A stretch of 64,000 nucleotides of DNA, taken from the NCBI GenBank assembly GCA_947450365.1, contig CANFVE010000001.1, forward strand, positions 90,538 to 154,537, read 5' to 3'. Made by a program: the position numbers and the translations under genes. The notes beneath the pieces were generated by a model. The model saw only the letters and a list, made by a program, of their open reading frames with translations. It was not told the origin of the DNA and searched no databases. Numbering within the stretch: position 1 is the stretch's first letter; the number at the start of each line of letters is the position of its first letter. This DNA comes from Cytophagaceae bacterium (GTDB lineage Bacteria > Bacteroidota > Bacteroidia > Cytophagales > Spirosomataceae). This document shows, piece after piece, positions 53,186 to 59,500 of this stretch.

Positions 53186-53527
53186 TTATAAAAAATCTGC
53201 CCGCATAGGACTAAATACGTCGATTAATTCGCCGGCTTCTAAGCAAAGCGCCCCGTGGATTTCCCCACTCGGTACAAAATACACATCGCCCGCCGATAAA
53301 ACTTTCGAAATTCCCGAAATCGTGATTTCAAATTTGCCTTTCGACACATATGACGCCTGAGTATGTGGATGATGATGCAAGGTTCCGATGGATCCCACTT
53401 GAAAATCTACTTTGGTGAGCATCATGTCGGCATTATGCGCCATCACTTTCCGACGAACCCCATCCCCTACATCCGTCCAATCAATTTCTGAATCTACAAT
53501 CAAAGTATTCGTTTTTGTCATATTCAT
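53186..53527 (-). CDS. Small cupin protein (KdgF-like)
   Basis: A 113-residue single-domain cupin. I use ATG 53527; the longer frame has a TTG start. Metal-binding motif 1 is GTLHHHPHTQASYVSKGKFE (HxHx4-type with HHPH) and motif 2 is PSGEIHGALCLEAGELIDVF. The pattern matches KdgF and similar pectin- or uronate-related cupins that linearise 4,5-unsaturated uronates, but cupins are diverse and I treat this as a hint. It probably forms an operon with the Gfo/Idh/MocA gene and is divergent from the amine permease. Confidence 0.8.
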   Translation of the reverse strand: MNMTKTNTLIVDSEIDWTDVGDGVRRKVMAHNADMMLTKVDFQVGSIGTLHHHPHTQASYVSKGKFEITISGISKVLSAGDVYFVPSGEIHGALCLEAGELIDVFSPMRADFL

Positions 53528-53559
53528 TTTCAATTAATCAAATTTCAGGAATTAAATTT

Positions 53560-53587: not shown

Positions 53588-54910
53588 ATGTCTTCTACTC
53601 ATCAAGCCCACCTAAAAAAGGTCCTCAGTCCACTCATGTTATGGGGATTAGGCGTGGGCTATGTGATTTCGGGCATGTATTTCGGATGGAACCTCGGCCT
53701 TCCCGAAGGTGGGACCTACGGCTTGGCCATCGCCACGGGCATCATCATTCTCCTGTATACCTGCTTTAGTTTTTCCTATGCCGAATTAGCCTGTTCCATT
53801 CCAAAAGCCGGCGGCGTGTTTGATTATGCCTCTCGAGCCTTCGGACCTCGCATGGGATTCATGGCTGGGATGGCCCAACTAATCGAATTTGTTTTCGCCC
53901 CACCCGCCATCGCCTTTGGAATTGGTGCCTATTTTAACCTGTTTTTTCCGGATGTGCCCGTGATGACCATTTCGATTGTCGCGTATGTGCTTTTTACTGG
54001 CCTGAATATGTATGGGGTGAAAGCCGCTGCGACCTTCGAATTAATCATTACCATCATCGCGGTGATTGAAATCATCATTTTCGCCGCGGTCACCTTGCCG
54101 CATTTTGAGGTGGCAAATCTGCAAAAAAATGCTTGGCCGAATGGCTGGACCGGCGTCATGGCCGCCCTACCTTTTGCGATATGGTTTTTCCTGGGGATTG
54201 AAGGGCTGGCGAATGTGGCTGAGGAAGCCGAAAATCCACAAAAAGATATTCAAAAGGGATTTGGCTATGCGCTGTTGACCCTCGTGATTTTATGTATCCT
54301 CGTTTTTCTTGGGGCCATCGGCGTGGGAGGCTGGGAGGCTATCGTGTATAAAAATGGTCATTCTGGGGATACCTCAGATTCACCATTGCCATTGGCGATG
54401 GGCCAAATTGTAGGTTCTTCGGGCTGGTTGTTTCATGTACTCCTGACAGTCGGTTTATTCGGTTTAGTGGCGTCTTTTCACGGTTTAATTTTAGCGGCGG
54501 GTCGTTCGAGTTATGAGTTAGGCGCCAAAGGCTTCGCCCCTCGATTTTTGGGCCAAATTAATGAGCGTTTTCAAACACCAGCCAAGGCCTTATTGGCCAA
54601 TATGGGCATCGGTATCATCGCCCTTTTTACCAATCAAACCGCTGAAATCATCACGATCTCGGTGATGGGGGCTTTGACATTGTATAGTATTGCGATGTTG
54701 TCCTTGCTCCGACTTCGAAAAAAAGAACCCAACATGCTCCGGCCTTTTCGGGTGCCCTTATATCCATGGATGCCCTTGTTGGCTTTGGTTTTGTCCACAC
54801 TTTGCCTTATTTTTATTGCCTTTTATCAGCCCACCTTGTTTTGTATTTACTTGGGAATCCTGACGATTTGTTATGTACTTTTTGTGTTGATCGTTCAACC
54901 CAAAACCTAA
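53588..54910 (+). CDS. Ethanolamine-type APC permease
   Basis: A 440-residue inner-membrane transporter with twelve predicted helices, APC superfamily. The N-terminal pattern VLSPLMLWGLGVGYVISGMY, FGWNLGLPEGGTYGLAIATG and ELACSIPKAGGVFDYASRAF is that of the ethanolamine permease (Eat) group; the helix-8 region shows FHGLILAAGRSSYELGAKGF. The ATG at 53588 (MSSTHQ) is preferred over the upstream TTG. It is the first gene of a five-gene operon whose remaining members form a gamma-glutamylation pathway, which supports uptake of an amino alcohol. The next gene begins 4 nt after its stop. Confidence 0.83.
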   Translation: MSSTHQAHLKKVLSPLMLWGLGVGYVISGMYFGWNLGLPEGGTYGLAIATGIIILLYTCFSFSYAELACSIPKAGGVFDYASRAFGPRMGFMAGMAQLIEFVFAPPAIAFGIGAYFNLFFPDVPVMTISIVAYVLFTGLNMYGVKAAATFELIITIIAVIEIIIFAAVTLPHFEVANLQKNAWPNGWTGVMAALPFAIWFFLGIEGLANVAEEAENPQKDIQKGFGYALLTLVILCILVFLGAIGVGGWEAIVYKNGHSGDTSDSPLPLAMGQIVGSSGWLFHVLLTVGLFGLVASFHGLILAAGRSSYELGAKGFAPRFLGQINERFQTPAKALLANMGIGIIALFTNQTAEIITISVMGALTLYSIAMLSLLRLRKKEPNMLRPFRVPLYPWMPLLALVLSTLCLIFIAFYQPTLFCIYLGILTICYVLFVLIVQPKT

Positions 54911-54914
54911 AACT

Positions 54915-56264
54915 ATGACTGAAAATCAAATCCTCGATTATGTTCGCGAACATGCGGATCAGCGAGTTAAACTAGCGATCACCGACATCGATGGGGTGTT
55001 GCGCGGAAAATACATCAGTACCGAGAAATTCTTAAGCGCCGTGCAGGGTAATGTAGGTTTTTGCAATGTGGTTTTTGGTTGGGACATGGCCGATGTAGCC
55101 TATGAGAATTCCGCCTATACCGGTTGGCATTCCGGCTACCCAGACGCGCCCGTACGAATCGATGTCTCCTCCTTTCGTAGCATTCCTTGGGAAAATAACA
55201 TTCCTTTTTTTCTCTGTGAGTTAATCGATGCGCCTACGCATTCGGCGGCTGTATGCCCCCGGGGCTTGTTGAAAGGCCTCATTTCCCAGGCCGAACAAGC
55301 CGGATTTACAGCGTTTTTCAGCCAAGAATTCGAATGGTTTAATTTCGAAGAAACCCCCAATTCCGTCCATGAAAAGAACTTTCAAAACCTGAAACCGCTT
55401 TCGCCTGGGATGTTTGGCTATTCGATTTTACGTAGCACCTTACGCAATGATTTTTTTGATGCGCTATTTGGCCAATTAAGCGCCTTCGGTATTCCTCTCG
55501 AGGGTTTGCATACGGAAACGGGCCCCGGTGTTTATGAAGCGGCGATTGCCTATTCGGGCATTTTAGAAGCAGCCGATCGGGCCGTATTGTTTAAATCTTC
55601 GGTCAAAGAATTAGCGTATAAAAAGGGCATTATGGCTACGTTTATGGCGAAATGGGATGAAAATCTACCAGGTTGCAGTGGCCATGTGCATCAAAGTCTC
55701 TGGGACACCCAACAAGAGAAAAACCTATTTTATGATGGGGAAACGGGGATGAGTGAATTATTCCAACATTATATCGCGGGCCAATTGCACTGTTTACCTC
55801 ATATCCTGCCGATGCTCGCGCCAACCGTCAATTCCTTCAAGCGATTGGTGGAAGGTGCTTGGGCACCCACGACCTTGACTTGGGCCGTGGATAATCGGAC
55901 TGTCGCGCTGCGTGCGTTGCCAGGAAGTAAAAAAGCTAGTCGTTTGGAAACGCGGGTGGTGGGTTCGGATGTGAATCCGTATTTGGCGATGTCGGCCTGT
56001 TTAGCCGCCGGATTGTATGGCATAAAACATAAATTGGCCTTGCAAGCTGCTACCGTGGGCAACGGATATGCGGATGAAAGCTTTGGTCGATTGCCCGGAA
56101 ATTTACAAAAAGCAACCCAAGCCATGAAGGAATCCCCGGTCGCAAAGGAATTATTTGGGGAGGAATTTGTGAATCATTTTGTGGCGACACGTGAGTGGGA
56201 ATGGGCCCAATACAGCCGAGTGGTCAGTGATTGGGAAAAGAAACGATATTTTGAAATTATTTAA
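54915..56264 (+). CDS. Glutamine-synthetase-like gamma-glutamylamide ligase
   Basis: A 449-residue enzyme of the GS superfamily, in the branch of GlnA-like gamma-glutamyl-amine ligases (PuuA, IpuC, GlnA4). Seen: N-terminal beta-grasp part with VKLAITDIDGVLRGKYIS; metal and nucleotide-binding segments HTETGPGVYEAAIAYSG and LPGCSGHVHQSLWD; the glutamate/phosphate site SFKRLVEGAWAPTTLTWAVDNRTVALRAL; and SRLETRVVGSDVNPYLAMSACLAAG. Ordinary glutamine synthetases have different flap and adenylylation segments, so this is more likely an ATP-dependent ligase joining glutamate to an amine. Product inferred: gamma-glutamyl-ethanolamide or similar. Confidence 0.85.
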   Translation: MTENQILDYVREHADQRVKLAITDIDGVLRGKYISTEKFLSAVQGNVGFCNVVFGWDMADVAYENSAYTGWHSGYPDAPVRIDVSSFRSIPWENNIPFFLCELIDAPTHSAAVCPRGLLKGLISQAEQAGFTAFFSQEFEWFNFEETPNSVHEKNFQNLKPLSPGMFGYSILRSTLRNDFFDALFGQLSAFGIPLEGLHTETGPGVYEAAIAYSGILEAADRAVLFKSSVKELAYKKGIMATFMAKWDENLPGCSGHVHQSLWDTQQEKNLFYDGETGMSELFQHYIAGQLHCLPHILPMLAPTVNSFKRLVEGAWAPTTLTWAVDNRTVALRALPGSKKASRLETRVVGSDVNPYLAMSACLAAGLYGIKHKLALQAATVGNGYADESFGRLPGNLQKATQAMKESPVAKELFGEEFVNHFVATREWEWAQYSRVVSDWEKKRYFEII

Positions 56265-56265
56265 G

Positions 56266-57414
56266 ATGGATTTTACACAAATACGACAATTTAATTTTCC
56301 TACCGTGATTCGTTTCGGGGTGGGGGCAGTGAAGGAATTAGCACCCTATGTCACGAGCCAGGGATTTTCAAAACCTCTCATCGTGACGGATCCGGTCATC
56401 GCGGAATTGGGATTTTTCAAGCAAATTTTGGCGGATCTTACGAAGGCCGGTTTTTCGGTCGAGGTGTTTTCAAGCATCCATAAAAACCCGGTGAAATCTG
56501 ATGTCTATGCAGGAACTGCCGTGTGGGATGCGACGGGTCGGGATTGTTTGATTGGGATTGGAGGAGGGGCGGCCTTGGATGTGGCGCGGGCGATTGTGTT
56601 GCAGGTGAATCACCGGGAGGATTTGTTCCATTACGATGATTTAATCGGCGGAGATGTCTATGTGACGAATGATGTGCCGCATTTTATTACCATTCCCACG
56701 ACCTCGGGAACGGGTTCGGAAGTTGGTCGTTCGGCGATCATTGCCGACGATGAAACGCATCAAAAAAAGATTTTATTTTCACCCAAATTATTAGCCAAAA
56801 TCGTCTTCGCCGATCCAATGCTGACCATGGAATTGCCGGCTTTTGTGACGGCGGCCACGGGCATGGATGCTCTGACGCATAATATGGAAGCCTATTTGGC
56901 CAAAAATTATCATCCAATGTGCGATGGAATCGCGCTGGAAGGGATGCGATTGGTATCGGAATCCTTGATCCAAGCGGTAAAAAAACCAAGCATTGAATCA
57001 CGGTCCAAGATGTTATTGGCTTCGATGATGGGCGCGATTGCGTTCCAAAAAGGCTTGGGTGTTGTGCATTCTTTGGCGCATCCTTTGTCTTCCTTGTTGG
57101 ACACACACCATGGCTTGGCGAATGCGGTAAATATTCCCTACGGCATGCGCTTTAACATCGCGGGTTTTGAGAATCGATTTGCGCGAATGGCGCAGACCTT
57201 GGGCCTTTCGGAGCATTCGGGGGACGCGGTGGTGTCTTATTTGTTTGACCTAAATACACAGGTGGGGATTCCGCATCGTTTGCGGGATATTCATGTCAAA
57301 GAGGAACATTTGGATACCTTGGCGGCCTTGGCATTTGCGGATTTTGCACATCCTAATAACCCTAAACCCGTTTCTCAGGCTGATTTTCGGGCGCTTTACG
57401 GCGAAGCTTTATAA
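56266..57414 (+). CDS. Iron-containing (group III) alcohol dehydrogenase
   Basis: A 382-residue NAD(P)-dependent dehydrogenase. I use ATG 56266, 1 nt after the ligase stop; a longer frame would overlap that gene. N-terminal NAD part: FGVGAVKELAPYV, CLIGIGGGAALDVARAI and TIPTTSGTGSEVGRSAI. Metal site: the Asp in PAFVTAATGMDALTHNMEAYL, the His in that same segment, and the histidines in GVVHSLAHPLSSLLDTHHGLANA. Its likely substrate is the hydroxyl of the gamma-glutamylated amino alcohol, giving an aldehyde for the aldehyde dehydrogenase encoded in the same operon. Confidence 0.88.
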   Translation: MDFTQIRQFNFPTVIRFGVGAVKELAPYVTSQGFSKPLIVTDPVIAELGFFKQILADLTKAGFSVEVFSSIHKNPVKSDVYAGTAVWDATGRDCLIGIGGGAALDVARAIVLQVNHREDLFHYDDLIGGDVYVTNDVPHFITIPTTSGTGSEVGRSAIIADDETHQKKILFSPKLLAKIVFADPMLTMELPAFVTAATGMDALTHNMEAYLAKNYHPMCDGIALEGMRLVSESLIQAVKKPSIESRSKMLLASMMGAIAFQKGLGVVHSLAHPLSSLLDTHHGLANAVNIPYGMRFNIAGFENRFARMAQTLGLSEHSGDAVVSYLFDLNTQVGIPHRLRDIHVKEEHLDTLAALAFADFAHPNNPKPVSQADFRALYGEAL

Positions 57415-57417
57415 GAT

Positions 57418-58113
57418 ATGGTGCGCATCGGCATTACGGAATCGGATACGAATTTCCTTAACTACCCCGCTTGGATTCAAGGGGATGGGGTGGAGGTTAT
57501 TGTTCTTTCCTATAAGAATGAAAATAAGGAAGATTTTTCGCGTTGCGATGGATTTCTGTTGTCGGGTGGCGTGGATATGCATCCATCGGCCTATGGGAAT
57601 TCGCGGGTGGATTATCCTTGGGCCACGAATTTTAATGGAGCACGTGATGCTTTTGAGCGCGAGGTTTTTCAATATGCCTGTTTACATGAAAAGCCGGTCT
57701 TGGCGATTTGTCGGGGCCTGCAAGTAGTCAATGTCGCACTTGGTGGTAATCTAATCCAAGATTTACAAGAGCAAGGATTTTCGAATCACCGAAAGGGTGC
57801 GGAGGCAGATCGCGAACATCTTATTTCTGTGGAGCCTTCAAGTTTATTATTTTCGATTGCCGGTCAGTCTCAAGGCCTCGTGAATTCGGCTCATCATCAA
57901 GGCTTGGACCGAATAGCCGAATCCCTTCGGGTCAGTGCTTGGTCAGATGACCGGGTCGTGGAGGCGATTGAATATAAAGATTTTGACCAAAAACCATTCT
58001 TTTTAGGTGTCCAATGGCATCCGGAGCGTTTACGCATCCAAGATTCCTATACACCTTTTTCCATGCATATCCGTCAGGCATTTTTGGATGCCGCAAAACC
58101 CTCCAACATATGA
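57418..58113 (+). CDS. Gamma-glutamyl hydrolase, class-I amidotransferase (C26, PuuD-like)
   Basis: A 231-residue cytoplasmic hydrolase with the glutamine-amidotransferase fold. Catalytic Cys in LAICRGLQVVNVALGG (about residue 99), and His/Glu in GVQWHPERL (about residue 200). FSRCDGFLLSGGVDMHPSAYG is the oxyanion/substrate segment typical of gamma-glutamyl-gamma-aminobutyrate hydrolase (PuuD). It would release glutamate and the free amino acid (glycine if the input is ethanolamine). It starts 3 nt after the dehydrogenase stop and overlaps the aldehyde dehydrogenase by 4 nt (ATGA). Confidence 0.87.
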   Translation: MVRIGITESDTNFLNYPAWIQGDGVEVIVLSYKNENKEDFSRCDGFLLSGGVDMHPSAYGNSRVDYPWATNFNGARDAFEREVFQYACLHEKPVLAICRGLQVVNVALGGNLIQDLQEQGFSNHRKGAEADREHLISVEPSSLLFSIAGQSQGLVNSAHHQGLDRIAESLRVSAWSDDRVVEAIEYKDFDQKPFFLGVQWHPERLRIQDSYTPFSMHIRQAFLDAAKPSNI

Positions 58114-59474
58114 ATATCATCAATCCCGCCACGGAAGAACTCATTACGCACGTGGATGCTGACACGTCCGAAACGCTGACGCTTAAATTTCAACGCCTTC
58201 ATGCTGCGCAATCAGCCTGGGCGGCACGAACAGTGGAAGAACGTTCCGCGATTTTGCTTCGCTTTGTGGATTTATTGAAACAAAATATGGAAGCCTTGGC
58301 GGGGATTTTGACGGCGGAAATGGGGAAGCCTTTGCAACAAAGTCGGAACGAAATCAACGGCGCCTCCGGCAAAGCCACCTGGCTCGCGGAACATGCGCCG
58401 ACTTACCTGGCCGACGAACTCATGTCCGTTTCTGAACAAATGACTGAAAAAATTGTCTATGAAGCTTTAGGGGTGATTTGTAATATCTCTGCATGGAATT
58501 ATCCATACAATGTGGGCGTGAACGTGTTTGTTCCGGCGCTTTTGGCGGGAAATGCGGTGATGTATAAACCTTCGGAATTTGCGACGTTGACCGGTATGGA
58601 AATCGCTCGTTATCTACATGAAGCTGGTGTTCCCGAGGATGTGTTTATCCTCGCGATCGGAGAGGGTGAAGTGGGGAAATCCCTATTAGACCTGCCGTTT
58701 CAAGGATATTATTTCACGGGTTCTTATCCCACAGGCAAATATATTTACGAACGCGTCTCCGAAAAAATGGTGCCTTGCGTCCTTGAATTAGGGGGTAAGG
58801 ATCCGGTCTATGTGGCGGATGACGTGGTGGACGTGGCAGGTGCTGCGGCGGGTATTGCAGATGGGGCCTTTTATAACAATGGGCAAAGCTGCTGCTCGGT
58901 CGAGCGCATTTATGTCCATGAAAAAATCTATGATGCCTTCGTGGATGCCTTTGTTCAGGAGGTGAATTCATGGAAAATCGGCGCGCCGACTGAAGAAGGT
59001 GTCTACCTATCTGTCCTCACTCGAAAAAATCAAATCGCCGTCTTAGAAGCTCAAGTGGCAGATGCGCTGAGCAAAGGAGCACGTGTACTCACGGGAGGTG
59101 CAGCGATGGAGGGGAAGGGCTATGGATTTGCGCCAACGGTTTTAGTCGATGTGCAACAACATATGCTTGTCATGCAAGATGAGAGTTTCGGTCCGATCAT
59201 TGGCATCATGAAAGTTCATTCAGATGCGGAAGCGGTAGAAAAGATGAACGACACGGCATTTGGCTTAACGGCTGGTGTGTATTCAGCTTCTCAAACTCGG
59301 GCGGAAACCATCTTGGCTCAGGTGAATTCAGGCTCAGGCTATTGGAATTGTTGCGACCGCGTCAGTGCCGCACTTCCATGGAGTGGTCGGGGACATTCGG
59401 GATTCGGATCTACCTTATCTCATGTGGGCTTGCGGGCATTCACCAAGACGAAATCCTATCATTTACGGAAATAA
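58110..59474 (+). CDS. NAD(P)-dependent aldehyde dehydrogenase
   Basis: A 454-residue aldehyde dehydrogenase. The ATG at 58110 forms the ATGA overlap with the hydrolase. Catalytic Cys in FYNNGQSCCSVERIYV (first Cys), the general-base Glu in VLELGGKDPVYV, and the conserved Asn in CNISAWNYPYNVG. The length and NNGQSC context fit the succinate-semialdehyde/GabD-like or PuuC-like groups. Its role would be oxidation of the gamma-glutamyl aminoaldehyde before hydrolysis. It is the last gene of the operon and is followed by a strong palindromic terminator. Confidence 0.9.
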   Translation: MNIINPATEELITHVDADTSETLTLKFQRLHAAQSAWAARTVEERSAILLRFVDLLKQNMEALAGILTAEMGKPLQQSRNEINGASGKATWLAEHAPTYLADELMSVSEQMTEKIVYEALGVICNISAWNYPYNVGVNVFVPALLAGNAVMYKPSEFATLTGMEIARYLHEAGVPEDVFILAIGEGEVGKSLLDLPFQGYYFTGSYPTGKYIYERVSEKMVPCVLELGGKDPVYVADDVVDVAGAAAGIADGAFYNNGQSCCSVERIYVHEKIYDAFVDAFVQEVNSWKIGAPTEEGVYLSVLTRKNQIAVLEAQVADALSKGARVLTGGAAMEGKGYGFAPTVLVDVQQHMLVMQDESFGPIIGIMKVHSDAEAVEKMNDTAFGLTAGVYSASQTRAETILAQVNSGSGYWNCCDRVSAALPWSGRGHSGFGSTLSHVGLRAFTKTKSYHLRK

Positions 59475-59500
59475 AAAAGAGACGCCTAGGCGTCTCTTTT
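59475..59500. terminator. Bidirectional Rho-independent terminator
   Basis: A perfect 26-nt palindrome with GAGACGCC on one side and GGCGTCTC on the other, A-run before and T-run after on either strand. It closes the amine operon and can also serve the convergent cytochrome c gene. Confidence 0.88.

Follow-up and report, generated by a model that had tools for sequence, protein, structure and literature searches.

A five-gene Bacteroidota operon with a putative role in B12-independent ethanolamine breakdown by gamma-glutamylation

In a 64,000-nucleotide (nt) stretch of DNA from a Cytophagaceae bacterium (assembly GCA_947450365.1, contig CANFVE010000001.1, positions 90,538 to 154,537 of the forward strand; hereafter the window), five open reading frames (ORFs) follow one another on the plus strand at 53588-59474 and form a candidate operon for the use of an amino alcohol, probably ethanolamine. 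The first encodes an Eat-type amino acid/ethanolamine permease of 440 aa (53588..54910; AA_permease_2, TIGR00908) with a putative role in uptake of the amino alcohol, and the second a glutamine synthetase (GS)-like gamma-glutamyl amide ligase of 449 aa (54915..56264; Gln-synt_C), which would use glutamate, the amino alcohol and ATP to make a gamma-glutamyl amide. They are followed by an iron-type alcohol dehydrogenase (ADH) of 382 aa (56266..57414; Fe-ADH) for the putative conversion of the gamma-glutamyl amide alcohol to the aldehyde, a PuuD-like hydrolase of class-I glutamine amidotransferase fold and 231 aa (57418..58113; Peptidase_C26) for the putative release of glutamate from the gamma-glutamyl acid, and an NAD(P)-dependent aldehyde dehydrogenase (ALDH) of 454 aa (58110..59474; Aldedh) for the putative conversion of the gamma-glutamyl aldehyde to the acid. 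Protein families were assigned with Pfam and NCBIfam profiles. The genes are separated by 4, 1 and 3 nt and the last two overlap by the 4 nt ATGA, exactly as a first-pass annotation of this DNA had described; the ORF listing also gives extended frames, beginning at TTG in the permease and the ADH and at an earlier ATG in the ALDH, whereas each frame given here begins with ATG. The genome amounts to 2.66 Mb in 61 contigs.

Ethanolamine is a lipid building block and, when derived from phosphatidylethanolamine, a common source of nitrogen and carbon. Judged from sequence, the five genes are probably an operon for its uptake and B12-independent breakdown by gamma-glutamylation. The Eat permease would import ethanolamine, which the GS-like ligase would convert with ATP into gamma-glutamylethanolamide; the iron ADH would then yield gamma-glutamylaminoacetaldehyde and the ALDH gamma-glutamylglycine, from which the PuuD-like hydrolase would release glycine together with glutamate, the latter being recycled. 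In this scheme the glutamyl tag would prevent the formation of a free amino aldehyde. We infer the substrate, every one of the reactions, which of the final two steps comes first, and the physiological role. A secondary alcohol, 1-amino-2-propanol for example, would be oxidised to a ketone and leave nothing for the ALDH to act on. The first-pass description of the operon as lacking EutBC held for EutB, which has no match in this 93.6% complete genome; EutC was not searched for. In the control of the EutB search, a match was obtained in E. coli (1/14 control genomes).

The ethanolamine reading draws on the permease, since this protein scores above the curated threshold of the TIGR00908 ethanolamine permease model (437.7 bits against a cut-off of 381.75), in agreement with its initial classification as Eat-type, and since its kin adjoin EutB or EutBC genes. 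Of 8 EutB loci from Bacteroidota, 4 have a relative of 42-46% identity as a neighbour of EutB, and a Thioclava relative follows eutB-eutC, while a Paraburkholderia relative lies beside a primary-amine oxidase and not EutB. As a separate observation, 9 of the 80 loci compared below (L025, L031, L034, L040, L050, L052, L053, L059 and L078) have, upstream of the permease, a SusD-like gene (one representative scanned) and an ORF of the 1142-aa class (unscanned), with one intervening ORF in two cases, and this pair is a possible outer-membrane uptake partner of the permease.

The ligase reaches 218.9 bits on the GlnA model TIGR00653, far below the cut-off of 429.15, and 188 bits on the gamma-glutamylputrescine synthetase model, for which the cut-off is 650; its identity to PuuA is 31%. 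In the alignment with E. coli GlnA, E327, which we take to be the Glu of the ammonium pocket, is replaced by Trp (W316 in the window ligase) and Y179 by Phe. All 12 compared Glu/Gly/His/Arg catalytic positions (GlnA 129, 131, 212, 220, 265, 269, 321, 339, 344, 355, 357 and 359), presumably those of the metal, glutamate and ATP sites, are kept. The replacement of E327 by Trp with retention of the other catalytic residues supports the ethanolamine reading, and by these sequence features the ligase is no ammonia-assimilating GS, as its original designation as a GS-like gamma-glutamyl ligase distinct from the housekeeping GlnA had implied. Two further GS-family matches are found in the genome. Among solved structures, those nearest by sequence are 11zs (289.6 bits) and 5dm3 (284.2 bits), the third scoring 165 bits. 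The 5dm3 protein, Csal_0679 of Chromohalobacter salexigens, is 75 and 71% identical to the ligases of Ruegeria conchae (L089) and Rhodobacteraceae SC52 (L090), respectively, and 36.7% identical to the window ligase. It is also the top structural match (Z 45.0) of the predicted ligase model, whose mean predicted local distance difference test score is 74.9; since glutamine synthetases trail it closely, from Z 44.0 down, the fold does not discriminate between functions.

The third gene product belongs to the Fe-ADH family, in line with the iron-type alcohol dehydrogenase foreseen for step two, and its Asp and His positions are kept in the alignment with FucO. Of the 15 plasmid matches listed as best for this ADH, ten have a GS-like gene as neighbour, according to annotation in Paracoccus alcaliphilus (TRAP-GS-ALDH-iron ADH) and Legionella lytica and according to coordinates in P. 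albus, four P. denitrificans records (one plasmid type), Paracoccus TOH, Photobacterium GJ3 and Ruegeria B32. A Mesorhizobium match (L153:2826-6149) has an N-formylglutamate amidohydrolase, an ALDH and an Eto-type iron ADH with no GS within 5 kb, and sarcosine oxidase genes adjoin it. According to the accessible portion of PMC10132767, the induced operon of Phaeobacter encodes an ethanolamine gamma-glutamylase, a gamma-glutamylethanolamide dehydrogenase, an aldehyde dehydrogenase and a gamma-glutamylglycine amidohydrolase. Clusters of the Phaeobacter layout (L089, L090, L091, L140 and L158) carry an iron ADH, and the ADH of L158 comes first, at 42.8%, in the list of plasmid matches to that of the window; both points argue for the ethanolamine reading. 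The hydrolase scores 169.3 bits on Peptidase_C26, is of the same superfamily as E. coli PuuD (36% over 173 residues) and has Cys and His-Pro-Glu motifs that align with those of PuuD. The ALDH scores 414.9 bits on Aldedh and contains the Cys (NNGQSC), Glu and Asn motifs.

Conservation was assessed on the best 80 of at least 592 candidates encoding a relative in the genome collection. The same five-gene order, which the first-pass annotation had proposed to look for in other Bacteroidota, is present on one strand in 47 of these 80 loci (two with gaps above 1 kb; 38/80 by strict ORF adjacency), and the association is therefore beyond chance; 18 of the remaining 33 loci fall short of the complete length of 17.3 kb. 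The ADH is missing from the fetched DNA of 24 of the 80 loci, and in all 16 of the genomes tested from this group it was found elsewhere (at 74-81% in 14 genomes, at 53% in one and, in two pieces, at 74-76% in one), with a PuuD homologue adjoining this ADH in 8 of 12 short loci. An even sampling of the window's class (295 genomes) has the ADH in 34, the window-type ligase in 41 and both in 32 (Fisher p 2.6e-32, relatedness uncorrected); the two genomes with the ADH only are 83% and 70% complete. This co-occurrence in 32 of 34 genomes, together with the ADH found elsewhere in 16 of 16 tested genomes, is a further argument for the ethanolamine reading. Gene content, gene order, conservation, family membership and the loss of the ammonium-pocket Glu are direct observations.

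With EutB in 10 of the 295 class genomes and the ADH in 34, the glutamylation route may be commoner than the EutB route in the window's class. An avoidance of the ligase by EutB genomes was considered and rejected, the reverse being seen for the ligase at large: 4 of 8 EutB genomes carry the ligase in an even sampling of 296 genomes of the phylum (p 0.007) and 4 of 10 in the class (p 0.036). In the phylum sample, the ligase occurs at 54% identity or more in 34 genomes, 6 with the five-gene set (window included) and 28 with another cassette, described below, to which all four ligase-bearing EutB genomes of this sample belong.

In a ligase tree of 66 rows, the window ligase falls in a Bacteroidota clade whose sister is a proteobacterial set (L084-L087, L092, L093 and L142; support 100/99), with IpuC next outward (98/92). 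The Eto and GlnA4-type ligases form their own clade (100/99) apart from the window ligase, which is thus not orthologous to Csal_0679; the GlnA4-type label is given by gene context (Embleya and Allomeiothermus rows), in a tree without S. coelicolor GlnA4 itself. An alternative in which window-type and Eto/GlnA4-type ligases form one group that excludes IpuC and the outgroups survives an approximately unbiased (AU) test (p 0.088), so that the placement nearer IpuC is tentative. Of the lineages among which the first-pass annotation had proposed to place the ligase (PuuA, IpuC, GlnA4 and GlnA), the tree tentatively sets it nearer IpuC and outside the Eto/GlnA4-type clade. In the ADH tree, the ADHs of the five-gene loci form one clade (100/100) and those of the Eto clusters and of Legionella and Photobacterium another (96/96).

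Two bridges between these lineages support ethanolamine as the likely substrate. In the first, the ligases of Legionella lytica (L086) and Photobacterium DA100 (L093) belong to the clade sister to that of the window, and the ADHs that accompany them group with the Eto-type ones (96/96). In the second, two other Bacteroidota clusters of the short-chain dehydrogenase (SDR) type (L132 and L135) join a ligase of the Eto/GlnA4-type clade, an SDR, an ALDH and an amidotransferase with a permease 61-62% identical to that of the window, and these permeases nest among those of the five-gene operons in the permease tree (96/95). In three further SDR-type loci (L131, L134 and L152), no window-type permease was found. 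As an additional observation on the sister set, a GMC oxidoreductase lies near the ligase instead of the iron ADH in L092 (annotated) and L142 (29% match), a possible replacement at the alcohol step.

Several results weigh against ethanolamine degradation as the function of the operon. The ligase lies outside the Csal_0679 clade and nearer IpuC in the tree (98/92), though with the AU value given above, and no supported branch unites the five-gene ADHs with the Eto-type ones. The hydrolase reaches 70.9 bits on the PuuD model NF008471, well below the cut-off of 266. Among the 15 plasmid matches of the ADH, two are without GS or Eto context and one without GS, two Shinella matches being unchecked. 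ADH genomes of the class show no significant avoidance of EutB (0/34 against 10/295, p 0.61). Finally, the ligase lineage recurs in other gene contexts, among them aminotransferase, kinase-like/HAD and ATP-grasp/GntP surroundings. On two plasmids (L084 and L085), the ligase is accompanied by a class III aminotransferase, a polyamine ABC transporter and a dimethylformamidase-like gene, and its substrate there is probably another amine. In six Emticicia-type loci (L028, L030, L042, L043, L046 and L058), a window-type ligase is flanked by an ATP-grasp-like gene and a GntP permease, the ADH lying elsewhere in the same genome. In 28 of 28 loci of mostly Flavobacteria-type genomes (L101-L128), a ligase homologue (54-62%), a kinase-like protein of 345-373 aa and a HAD-IIA phosphatase stand in this order on one strand, in what looks like an undescribed three-gene cassette. 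No Pfam family matched this kinase-like protein above cut-off (APH matched weakly in 3 of 26 members), and a comparison with solved structures by sequence gave nothing convincing. The ADH is present in none of the 9 tested cassette genomes (of 28), and an Eat relative in only 3 of the 9, at 44% and at their EutB loci. Since the cassette shares the ligase lineage, the ligase alone proves nothing about the pathway, and homology alone would mis-assign function within this lineage.

The same chemistry could serve another primary amino alcohol, for example 3-aminopropanol, which would yield beta-alanine, or L-alaninol, which would yield alanine. This is an unlikely alternative but one of some weight: the ligase belongs to a lineage other than that of Csal_0679, nearer IpuC in the tree, IpuC-type ligases stand with P450 and ferredoxin genes in clusters where alaninol is presumably an intermediate, and the ADH family is broad. 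On the other hand, the family of the permease, its EutB/EutBC neighbours and both bridges lead to ethanolamine-type clusters, and the five genes include neither P450 nor ferredoxin. It is much less probable that the operon is of the Puu kind, glutamylating a polyamine or alkylamine, with the ADH recruited for something else. A GS-like ligase, a PuuD-like hydrolase and an ALDH also constitute Puu, and two plasmids carry same-lineage ligases alongside genes for an aminotransferase and a polyamine ABC transporter; the permease, however, is of the Eat family and not of the putrescine type, and the ligase accompanies the ADH in 32 of 34 ADH genomes. The absence of an amine oxidase among the five genes, together with the ligase score of 188 bits where 650 is the cut-off and its 31% identity to PuuA, led to the rejection of the Puu pathway. 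That the ligase is an ordinary nitrogen-assimilating GS with unrelated neighbours is scarcely credible, for although it has the Gln-synt_C fold and the structural matches of its model are glutamine synthetases in general, the GlnA identity was ruled out by the TIGR00653 score (218.9 against 429.15 bits) and the E327 to Trp replacement, and the two further GS-family matches in the genome and the conservation of the operon also speak against it.

Around the operon, a hairpin of 11 pairs (59475..59500; predicted -16.5 kcal/mol) follows the last stop codon in the interval between two converging genes and is a possible terminator; it appears on the minus-strand list only, from a scan that gave 6 sites in all against 9.7 in shuffles. 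The promoter scan gave fewer sites than shuffles. A small cupin gene on the minus strand (53186-53533), divergent from the operon, is kept in close relatives (L005-L007).

These observations allow a broader and more tentative proposal, namely that the Bacteroidota may possess a separately assembled, B12-free gamma-glutamyl pathway for ethanolamine or another primary amino alcohol, with a distinct ligase lineage and a PuuD-type hydrolase, and that this lineage may have radiated, including into the ligase/kinase-like/HAD cassette. The pathway itself is not new, since the clustered route is published for Chromohalobacter, Agrobacterium and Phaeobacter, the first two being cited from Vetting et al. 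in the accessible portion of PMC10132767. The first-pass view of such a cluster as undescribed is not supported for the pathway as such, clustering being described for Phaeobacter (PMC10132767); for Bacteroidota, no report of ethanolamine glutamylation was found in a search of mainly open-access literature. The Bacteroidota gene combination thus looks like the new part, a separate version of a pathway known from other phyla. In the same portion of PMC10132767, about 94% of ocean etoX matches are in Alphaproteobacteria; etoX is a TRAP marker, and since the window operon has no counterpart of it, Bacteroidota versions with an Eat permease would escape that count.

Compared with the system of Phaeobacter sp. 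MED193, Chromohalobacter salexigens and Agrobacterium, whose components are named EtoVWX, ETAGA, GAADDH, GETADH and GGAH in the accessible part of PMC10132767, the window operon likewise gathers a GS-like ligase, an ALDH, an amide-alcohol dehydrogenase, a hydrolase and a dedicated transporter in one cluster. The gene list of L090 (RpiR, N-formylglutamate amidohydrolase, TRAP small and large permease, a signal-bearing protein, GS, ALDH and iron ADH) matches the Phaeobacter MED193 list given there; an FGase-type hydrolase is found in L089, L090, L091 and L140, and S. meliloti and R. leguminosarum (L091 and L140) have an amino acid permease where others have TRAP. The window operon differs in the lineage of its ligase, which is 35-37% identical to GS_SC52, GS_Sm and 5dm3, and in that its hydrolase is PuuD-type whereas theirs is of the N-formylglutamate-amidohydrolase type, and an Eat permease stands in place of the TRAP transporter EtoVWX; moreover, no RpiR gene adjoins and the gene order is different.

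The Streptomyces coelicolor glnA4 cluster also has a GS-like ligase with an ALDH and an amidotransferase. As the first-pass annotation had noted, GlnA4 is a gamma-glutamylethanolamide synthetase; the accessible portion of PMC6529630 shows ethanolamine as its substrate and proposes the later steps of the same route. As described there, the dehydrogenase is short-chain where the window has an iron ADH and the transporter is without similarity to Eat; the ligase, judged from the context-labelled Embleya and Allomeiothermus rows, belongs to the other clade. The Legionella lytica plasmid (L086) and Photobacterium DA100 (L093) share with the window a sister-clade ligase (47% for Legionella), an iron ADH, an ALDH and a class-I amidotransferase-like gene, but their gene order differs, no Eat permease was found alongside, and their hydrolase did not align with that of the window by BLAST. 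With the E. coli Puu pathway (L094), the operon has in common the logic of gamma-glutamyl protection, an ALDH and a PuuD-type hydrolase, whereas the amine oxidase PuuB acts there at step two and the ligases are 31% identical. The isopropylamine clusters of IpuC (L088 and L138) include P450, ferredoxin and ferredoxin reductase genes, none of which is among the five of the window. Lastly, some EutBC loci share the Eat permease family, but their ethanolamine ammonia-lyase is B12-dependent, while the route proposed here would proceed by gamma-glutamylation in a genome with no EutB match.

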